Positions 39,338 through 64,000 of a DNA stretch of 64,000 bases are shown here, in pieces (the first letter of the stretch is position 1; each line of letters starts with the position of its first letter). Made by a program: the position numbers and the translations under genes. The stretch is from assembly GCF_000455345.1 (NCBI RefSeq), contig NZ_HG315690.1, forward strand, positions 124,001-188,000, in the 5' to 3' direction. This DNA is from Halopiger goleimassiliensis. Its GTDB lineage: Archaea; Halobacteriota; Halobacteria; Halobacteriales; Natrialbaceae. Under the pieces are notes generated by a model. It was not told the origin of the DNA and made no database searches. It saw nothing but the letters and a program-made list of their open reading frames with translations.

Positions 39338-39877
39338 TCACCGGTCGGCCTCCCGCTCGTCGGCCTGCGCCGAGACGTCAGTGCCCTCGGCCACCGACCG
39401 AATCGTGTCGTACTCGTCGTCGCTGTATGCGATGAACCGGACGTCCTCGAGTGCCTCCGGCTCGTAGCTGCTGAGTTCCTCGTCGATGATCCGGGCACCG
39501 TCCGCGAGGTCGAAGCCCGCGACGCCACAGCCGAGCGCCGGAATCACGAGGGAGCGACAGCCGAGTTCGTCCGCGCGCACGAGGCTGTTGCGGGTCGCCG
39601 ACCGGATGCTCTCCTCGGTCGCCTGTCCGTCGCCGTAGTGTGGCATCGCGGCGGCGTGGATCACGTAGTCGGCGTCGAGGTCGTAGGCGTCGGTGACCGC
39701 GACCTCGCCGAGGTCGACCGGTCCCTTCTCCATGGTCGCCTCGTTGATCTCCTCGCCGGCACCTCGTCTGAGAGCGCCGGCGACCCCGGAACCCATGCGG
39801 AGGCTCGTTCCGGCGGCGTTGACCAGTGCGTCTGCGGACTGTTCCGCGATGTCACCCTGGACGACCGCGTACTCCAT
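39338..39877 (-). CDS. Macro-domain protein (ADP-ribose/O-acetyl-ADP-ribose hydrolase-like)
   Basis: The ATG at 39877 gives 179 residues. VVQGDIAEQSADALVNAAGTSLRMGSGVAGALR is the macro-domain adenine and catalytic loop with the NAAG-type Asn, VAVTDAYDLDADYVIHAA follows, and VIPALGCGVAGFD is the diphosphate loop. Such proteins bind or cleave ADP-ribose derivatives. The extra 25-residue acidic tail is not part of the fold. The gene is divergent from a tiny gene behind DtxR-type operators. Confidence 0.9.
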   Translation of the reverse strand: MEYAVVQGDIAEQSADALVNAAGTSLRMGSGVAGALRRGAGEEINEATMEKGPVDLGEVAVTDAYDLDADYVIHAAAMPHYGDGQATEESIRSATRNSLVRADELGCRSLVIPALGCGVAGFDLADGARIIDEELSSYEPEALEDVRFIAYSDDEYDTIRSVAEGTDVSAQADEREADR

Positions 39878-40059: not shown

Positions 40060-40099
40060 TTAGGCGGACCAAAACCTTTTTAGATTTAGGGTGGCCTAA
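40060..40099 (+). promoter_or_regulatory. Tandem DtxR-type operators flanking a TATA box
   Basis: A perfect inverted repeat TTAGGGTGGCCTAA (TTAGG-N4-CCTAA) lies at 40086-40099, between the TATA-like CTTTTTAG (40076-40083) and the start at 40109. A second copy with one mismatch, TTAGGCGGACCAAA, lies at 40060-40073 on the other side of the TATA box. TTAGG/CCTAA half-sites are those of DtxR/IdeR-type metal repressors. The placement fits repression by blocking TFB/TBP and polymerase. Confidence 0.65.
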
Positions 40100-40108
40100 T
40101 CCAACGTG

Positions 40109-40276
40109 ATGGACGTACCCGCCCGAAGGCAGGAATCGGACGCCGACGAGGAACCTCCCGAGCCGACGGCAGTCGTAACCAGCCACGAGACTCGCCCCGG
40201 AAACGTCGTCTTCACCGAACGGGGGAACTCCGACGGCTGGATCGCGACGGACCTGACCGTCGACCTCGAGCCCTGA
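40109..40276 (+). CDS. Haloarchaeal microprotein (DUF7331-like), 55 aa
   Basis: A 55-aa frame reading MDVPARRQESDADEEPPEPT, then VVTSHETRPGNVVFTERGNSDGWIATDLTVDLEP. The 'vvfte..nsdgWIatDltv' end resembles a family of very small haloarchaeal proteins ending in a conserved Trp-Ile motif; the DUF name is tentative. The ATG lies 29 nt after a TATA-like box, so the mRNA is leaderless, and two DtxR-type sites overlap the promoter. A metal-responsive microprotein is the inference. Confidence 0.72.
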   Translation: MDVPARRQESDADEEPPEPTAVVTSHETRPGNVVFTERGNSDGWIATDLTVDLEP

Positions 40277-63440: not shown

Positions 63441-63466
63441 CTATAAGTGTTTTAGGCGTGCCTAAA
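63441..63466 (+). promoter_or_regulatory. TATA box plus perfect DtxR-type operator before ABC transporter gene
   Basis: The TATA-like CTATAAG is at 63441-63447. The perfect inverted repeat TTAGGCGTGCCTAA is at 63452-63465, extended by one more pair to TTTAGG-N4-CCTAAA. The operator lies between the TATA box and the expected transcript start near 63470, the usual place for a repressor. The start codon at 63502 then has a leader of about 32 nt. Confidence 0.7.
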
Positions 63467-63501: not shown

Positions 63502-64000
63502 ATGGCGAACGGACAACTACTGACGACGACCGAGGAACCGCGCCAGGAGGCCGACGAAAGCGGCGACGTCGTCCTCGAACTCGAGGACGTCGCGAAGGAG
63601 TTCGGCAACGAGGCGGTTATCTCCGAGCTATCCCTGTCCGTCCACGATGGTGAGATTCTCACGCTGCTCGGCCCCTCGGGCTGTGGCAAGACGACGACGC
63701 TCCGGCTGATCGCCGGCCTCGAGGAACCGACCCACGGACGCATCCGACTGCAGGACGACGACGTCGCCGGGAACGGACGGTTCGTCCCGCCCGAGGAACG
63801 CGGCGTCGGGGTCGTCTTTCAGGAGTTCGCCCTCTTTCCGCACCTCACCGCCCGTGAGAACGTCGCGTTCGGCCTCGATGACTGGCCAGCGGAGAAACGC
63901 GACGCCCGCGTCGAGGAGTTACTCGAGCTGGTCGGCCTCGAGAGCCACGGCGACCACTATCCCGACGAACTCTCCGGCGGGCAACAGCAACGGATCGCGC
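63502..64000 (+). CDS. ABC transporter ATP-binding protein, probable metal (iron) uptake, 3' end cut
   Basis: The visible 166 residues hold an acidic N-terminus (1-22), Walker A GPSGCGKTTTLR, the Q-loop VVFQEFALFPHLTARENVAF and the signature LSGGQQQRIA. The sequence is of the Fe(3+)/spermidine/thiamine (FbpC/PotA) ATPase type. A DtxR-type operator in its promoter suggests iron or manganese transport. Walker B and any C-terminal domain lie beyond the window. Confidence 0.9.
   Translation, partial: MANGQLLTTTEEPRQEADESGDVVLELEDVAKEFGNEAVISELSLSVHDGEILTLLGPSGCGKTTTLRLIAGLEEPTHGRIRLQDDDVAGNGRFVPPEERGVGVVFQEFALFPHLTARENVAFGLDDWPAEKRDARVEELLELVGLESHGDHYPDELSGGQQQRIA

Follow-up and report, generated by a model that had tools for sequence, protein, structure and literature searches.

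The microprotein gene and its promoter

The window analyzed here, a 64-kb stretch of the genome of Halopiger goleimassiliensis, encompasses a small gene whose promoter is bracketed by two predicted operators of the DtxR type. The features of the locus, with positions counted within the window, are the following.

40060..40073, + strand: site 1, upstream DtxR-type operator (predicted), TTAGGCGGACCAAA, one mismatch
40077..40084, + strand: TATA box, TTTTTAGA, between sites 1 and 2
40086..40099, + strand: site 2, downstream DtxR-type operator (predicted), TTAGGGTGGCCTAA, perfect, at -23 from the ATG
40109..40276, + strand: gene for a microprotein of 55 aa, DUF7331 (PF24018) subfamily, ATG at 40109, 55 codons plus stop
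39338..39877, - strand: neighboring gene for a macro-domain protein (PF01661), found upstream in synteny in many genomes of the host family and in that family only

The two sites, 26 bp apart from start to start, flank the TATA box TTTTTAGA, and the microprotein ATG follows the end of site 2 at a distance of 10 nt; the preliminary description had reported one perfect and one single-mismatch DtxR-type site around a TATA box at this spacing and, 10 nt farther, a gene of 55 codons, and all these positions were confirmed. An in-frame GTG at 40106 immediately precedes the ATG. The right half of site 1 overlaps the BRE-like CCAAAACC, and the mismatch of site 1 is itself conserved in the homologues (TTAGGYNNACCAAAA at -49), probably because of this overlap. 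From the distance between the TATA box and the ATG, a leaderless or nearly leaderless mRNA is predicted. Downstream, the closest gene lies on the opposite strand and there is no plausible co-directional gene nearby, so that the microprotein gene looks monocistronic; the macro-domain neighbor probably does not belong to the system. Across the 64-kb window, the motif occurs three times with at most one mismatch, compared with 0.14 sites expected, and none of 100 shuffles yielded three. The third of these sites, perfect (TTAGGCGTGCCTAA, 63452-63465), is followed, after 37 nt, by an ABC/TOBE ATPase gene that starts at 63502, a likely part of an Fe3+ transporter sharing this operator control.

Homologues of the microprotein are encoded in all 125 genomes of the host family and in 365 of the 391 sampled genomes of the class, and the median dN/dS is 0.26 (1167 pairs among 50 sequences of 55 aa); hence, this is a real gene, and its product is under purifying selection. 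The protein consists of an acidic, variable N-terminus and a conserved core, HETRPGxxVFTExxNxDGWIATDxxVDLE; in the alignment of the two clades of homologues, A (which includes the window gene) and B, the residues M1, E37, N40, G43, and W44 are invariant. The microprotein lacks cysteine altogether, and none is conserved in the alignment. A Pfam scan assigned the microprotein to DUF7331 (PF24018, function unknown) with 29 bits against a gathering cut-off of 27, whereas paralogue B of the same genome scored 19.2 bits, under the cut-off; a scan against NCBIfam gave no match. Two AlphaFold models were poor (mean pLDDT 72 and 64), with only a beta-hairpin, residues 23-37, predicted at modest confidence. 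Nothing meaningful was retrieved by Foldseek from the PDB (best E-value 7.2), and a profile search of PDB sequences produced a single match, with an E-value of 5.5. The microprotein region matches no Rfam family, and the reading as an RNA element was dropped on these grounds. No operators were found in the 150 bp scanned before the matches of the three other DUF7331 members of this genome that score above the cut-off (L017, L018, and L019; L019, encoded on the opposite strand, was scanned without re-orientation). The iron-linked proteins constitute a distinct subfamily of DUF7331, a family that the literature searched does not mention by name.

Operator conservation and the iron regulon

The preliminary description would have been refuted by a lack of operator conservation among haloarchaeal orthologues, and it passed this check. 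Of 185 distinct homologous genes, drawn from many families of haloarchaea, 184 have a site at the expected position that deviates from the motif by no more than one mismatch, compared with 1 of 185 control windows; the start codons for this count were picked without regard to the operators. Site 2 is perfect in 169 of these 185 genes, and site 1 is found with up to one mismatch in 109. The common layout, TTAGGYNNACCAAAA at -49, the TATA box, and TTAGGNNNNCCTAA at -23, recurs within the host family, in other families, and across a set of 80 loci, and clade B of the microprotein gene has site 2 only. The sole exception to operator conservation (L272) comes from a genome in which a strong DpsA match is missing as well.

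The genomic distribution of the motif points in the same direction. The whole 3.9-Mb genome contains 24 perfect copies versus 1 of the reversed pattern; when one mismatch is allowed, 31 motif sites compare with 35 of the reversed pattern, so that genome-wide only the perfect copies discriminate. These perfect sites are located mostly at iron and siderophore uptake genes, in addition to one DtxR-family gene. The genes closely 3' of them encode several Peripla_BP_2 lipoproteins, one SBP_bac_8 lipoprotein, a FecCD permease, an ABC/TOBE ATPase, a siderophore-type class-III aminotransferase, and a plastocyanin-like lipoprotein; a small Fe_dep_repress (DtxR-family) gene also starts closely after a perfect site. 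The genome contains four DtxR-family genes. Three features of the haloarchaeal DtxR-type iron regulon with the motif TTAGGNNNNCCTAA were found: an operator over the core promoter, here in the form of two sites bracketing the TATA box, the same motif before known iron-uptake genes of the same genome, and conservation of the operator before orthologues. Elsewhere in the genome there are five pairs of sites spaced 34-36 bp.

Two further loci with perfect sites were noted. At L003 (1947-2112), a perfect site precedes by 6 nt a 48-aa ORF without a Pfam match, which is perhaps a second iron-controlled microprotein or else a broken gene start. L015 (1940-2880) has a pair of perfect sites, 35 bp from one another, immediately 5' of a DUF7551/DUF7552 gene, a candidate for a further member of the iron regulon with unknown function.

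With the operators conserved across haloarchaeal families and the other perfect sites marking the iron regulon, the metal-type control proposed in the preliminary description is strongly supported and, judging from these comparisons, in all probability does govern the microprotein gene. For the same reasons, a role of the microprotein in the iron response, which had been suggested in the form of a 'regulator, chaperone or adaptor', is very likely. This suggestion named no target. The alignment contains no conserved Cys/His set for metal binding or redox chemistry, and a metal chaperone was for this reason rejected as the first-choice reading.

Linkage and co-occurrence with the ferritin DpsA

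Clustering of all ORFs near the 80 loci identified DpsA (ferritin-like, PF00210) as the most shared neighbor, present in 62 of the 80. Outside the host family, DpsA is found in 25 of 34 loci, and the next unrelated neighbor (DUF7547) in about 13. As the genomes are related and the 80 loci overlap the genome set of the host family, the statistical values are to be read as upper limits on the evidence. One genome from each of 60 other genera was sampled so that favorable cases could not be chosen. The microprotein gene was detected in 57 of these 60 genera, 56 of which also encode a strong DpsA (E < 1e-40); the three genera without the gene also lack DpsA. In 49 of the 57 genera, the microprotein gene and dpsA are at most 5 kb apart (median gap, 136 bp), compared with about 0.17 such pairs expected by chance. 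Of 53 linked pairs, 49 are convergent, 2 divergent, and 2 codirectional. Because convergent genes are not co-transcribed, this linkage represents association rather than contact.

The absence of the two genes is correlated as well. Among 20 genomes that lack the microprotein gene, strong DpsA is encoded in 4, only distant matches were obtained in 3, and none in 13; the 4 with strong DpsA belong to a single genus and have dpsA promoters without the site described below. Comparison of the 56 of 57 gene-positive with the 4 of 20 gene-negative genomes that have strong DpsA gives p = 6e-12 in Fisher's test, a value that, like any p value calculated from genomes that are not independent, overstates the certainty. 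The losses occur within genera that otherwise hold both genes; given that adjacent genes can be removed by a single deletion, co-loss counts for less than does co-retention in genomes with the two genes unlinked. In some genera, tandem, more distant DpsA-like genes are present beside the standard dpsA (L274 in G158 and L275 in G155; also G289, G290, G317, and G352), and several of these adjoin the microprotein gene.

The clade B microproteins pair with a separate clade of DpsA: one block in the microprotein tree and one in the DpsA tree comprise almost identical sets of loci. The genome studied here has pair B intact at C1:1352.4-1354.1 kb, whereas pair A, that of the window gene, is split: dpsA1, at C1:1861877, is separated from the microprotein gene by about 1.7 Mb of their common contig.

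L004 1926-3640 (G000:C1:1352425-1354140): pair B cluster, with two operators, small DtxR-family gene, microprotein B, Amphi-Trp-like ORF, and dpsA2

The microprotein B gene has its own perfect site at -23 and lies directly 3' of the small DtxR-family gene; dpsA2 is convergent with it, and the Amphi-Trp-like ORF between the two is under the Pfam cut-off.

The dpsA promoters provide a further connection. Among 163 dpsA upstream regions, 76 contain a TTTAGGNNNNCCAAA-like site with at most two mismatches, almost always at -68 to -71, compared with 0 of 163 in the control window and 0.9% in shuffled sequence. A TATA-like element lies 37 bp from the start of this site, the end of which is about 23 bp upstream of the TATA. 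Location of a site upstream of the TATA suggests activation of dpsA, and location over the start region suggests repression of the microprotein gene; from these positions we infer that the two genes are oppositely controlled. No clear TTAGG site was found in the dpsA1 promoter of this genome. In L215 and other loci of the host family, dpsA promoters without a TTAGG-type site often show another dyad, TTTCC...GGAAA, at this same distance of about 70 nt from dpsA, to which a different regulator might bind.

Together, the adjacency, the co-occurrence, the paired paralogues, and the related promoter site point to DpsA as the likely target of the microprotein, which the preliminary description had missed. 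A functional link between the two proteins appears very likely to us on this comparative evidence, and the partnership is a new finding.

Proposed mechanism, precedents, and alternatives

The best explanation of these observations, to which we assign a probability of roughly 0.5, appears to be an iron-repressed microprotein acting together with the ferritin DpsA. Under iron sufficiency, a DtxR-family regulator loaded with metal would occupy both operators and thereby mask the BRE/TATA region along with the start site, keeping TBP and TFB out, so that the microprotein gene is off; meanwhile, a regulator of the same family would, probably, activate dpsA through the related site 5' of the dpsA TATA box. 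Once iron becomes scarce, the regulator would leave, less DpsA would be made, and the short, nearly leaderless mRNA would yield the microprotein. The microprotein would then target pre-existing DpsA, most likely by binding, such that iron loading ends or stored iron is freed or, alternatively, the shell is turned over. Whether the microprotein acts against iron storage by DpsA in this manner is, in our judgment, an even call.

The nearest precedent in logic is the manganese response of Escherichia coli, where MntR has opposite effects on two proteins, repressing the small MntS and inducing MntP, which MntS has been proposed to inhibit (PMC4361602). In the proposed model, as in E. coli, a small protein would be repressed by a DtxR-family metalloregulator and made at metal scarcity, and the opposing arm would be induced by a regulator of that family; the microprotein and dpsA promoters carry related sites, at positions suggesting repression and activation. 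The differences are that the bacterial system deals with manganese and an exporter, whereas the opposing arm of the microprotein would be a ferritin; furthermore, there is no visible sequence relation to MntS, the Pfam scan of the microprotein having returned DUF7331 only. Another comparison is with Bfd, the bacterioferritin-associated ferredoxin, a small ferritin partner that mobilizes stored iron at iron deficiency (PMC7760384, PMC12363616). Bfd, however, contains an iron-sulfur cluster, and its partner is bacterioferritin rather than a Dps-type protein; the microprotein has no cysteine to hold such a cluster, so the redox route of Bfd is impossible for it, and the possibility that it is a Bfd was ruled out. 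In haloarchaea, the FerR/Idr/SirR/TroR regulons likewise feature DtxR-family control of siderophore and Fe-ABC genes, and ferR regulon signals are located upstream of the fhu genes of Haloferax volcanii (PMC11349517). In the literature searched on these regulons, to which the primary regulon papers do not belong, neither the microprotein nor a link to DpsA is mentioned. In Haloferax volcanii, we take dpsA to be HVO_0536 and idr to be HVO_0538, which would make HVO_0537, not mentioned in the literature searched, a candidate orthologue of the microprotein gene, as a lead only.

Several other explanations have to be weighed against this model. The microprotein could be an accessory factor of the DtxR-family regulator, for example an anti-repressor or co-regulator that exerts feedback on the iron switch. 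This would fit the position of paralogue B directly 3' of a small DtxR-family gene in this genome, the presence of a small DtxR-family homologue close 5' of clade-B genes in about ten genomes, and the fact that MntS was first spotted via its effect on MntR-dependent repression (PMC4361602). However, clade A, with the window gene, adjoins DtxR-family genes in isolated cases only, whereas DpsA adjacency is true of both clades, and we consider such a role unlikely. Similarly improbable, in our view, is an iron-sparing factor for another target, such as an uptake system or an iron-using enzyme, in which case the dpsA link would reflect shared iron biology without contact. Such a factor would be compatible with the operators, which put the gene in the general iron-uptake regulon, and with dpsA being unlinked in 8 of the 57 genera and in this genome, but no neighbor is shared as widely as DpsA, and the joint absence with DpsA and the pairing of paralogues indicate DpsA specifically.

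The prevalence of convergent pairs (49/53) with short gaps raises the possibility that the transcript rather than the protein is functional, with the derepressed convergent RNA lowering dpsA by antisense or transcriptional interference. The purifying selection on the protein, with core residues invariant over haloarchaea, and the persistence of codirectional, divergent, and unlinked arrangements, including that in this genome, along with the absence of an Rfam match, make this highly improbable. The opposite effect on DpsA would draw on the same linkage and co-occurrence evidence and on the DNA-protecting roles that Dps proteins generally have: the microprotein would aid DpsA, for example as a subunit or chaperone by which DpsA is converted, during starvation, from a store of iron into a protector of DNA. 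This, too, seems very unlikely: if the same regulator family activates dpsA, as the site positions suggest, production of the microprotein would coincide with the lowest production of DpsA.

Under the preferred model of an iron-repressed microprotein working with DpsA, a broader claim can be put forward only tentatively, at somewhat less than even odds: DtxR-repressed DUF7331 proteins might be a previously undescribed haloarchaea-wide class of ferritin-control microproteins that, without an iron-sulfur cluster, bind a Dps-type ferritin and switch it from storage to release or turnover, in two co-inherited pairs. The microprotein gene with its operator is present in nearly all haloarchaea examined, usually beside dpsA, and its product probably helps the cells to halt iron storage, or to recover iron, when iron is short. 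To our knowledge, the return of iron from Dps-type ferritins is poorly understood; a microprotein that almost always accompanies DpsA, is apparently controlled by an iron regulator, and is usually encoded beside dpsA would offer a genetic handle on this process in tractable archaea. DUF7331 would thereby gain a testable function, and DtxR-family regulators of archaea may, like MntR in E. coli, control microproteins.
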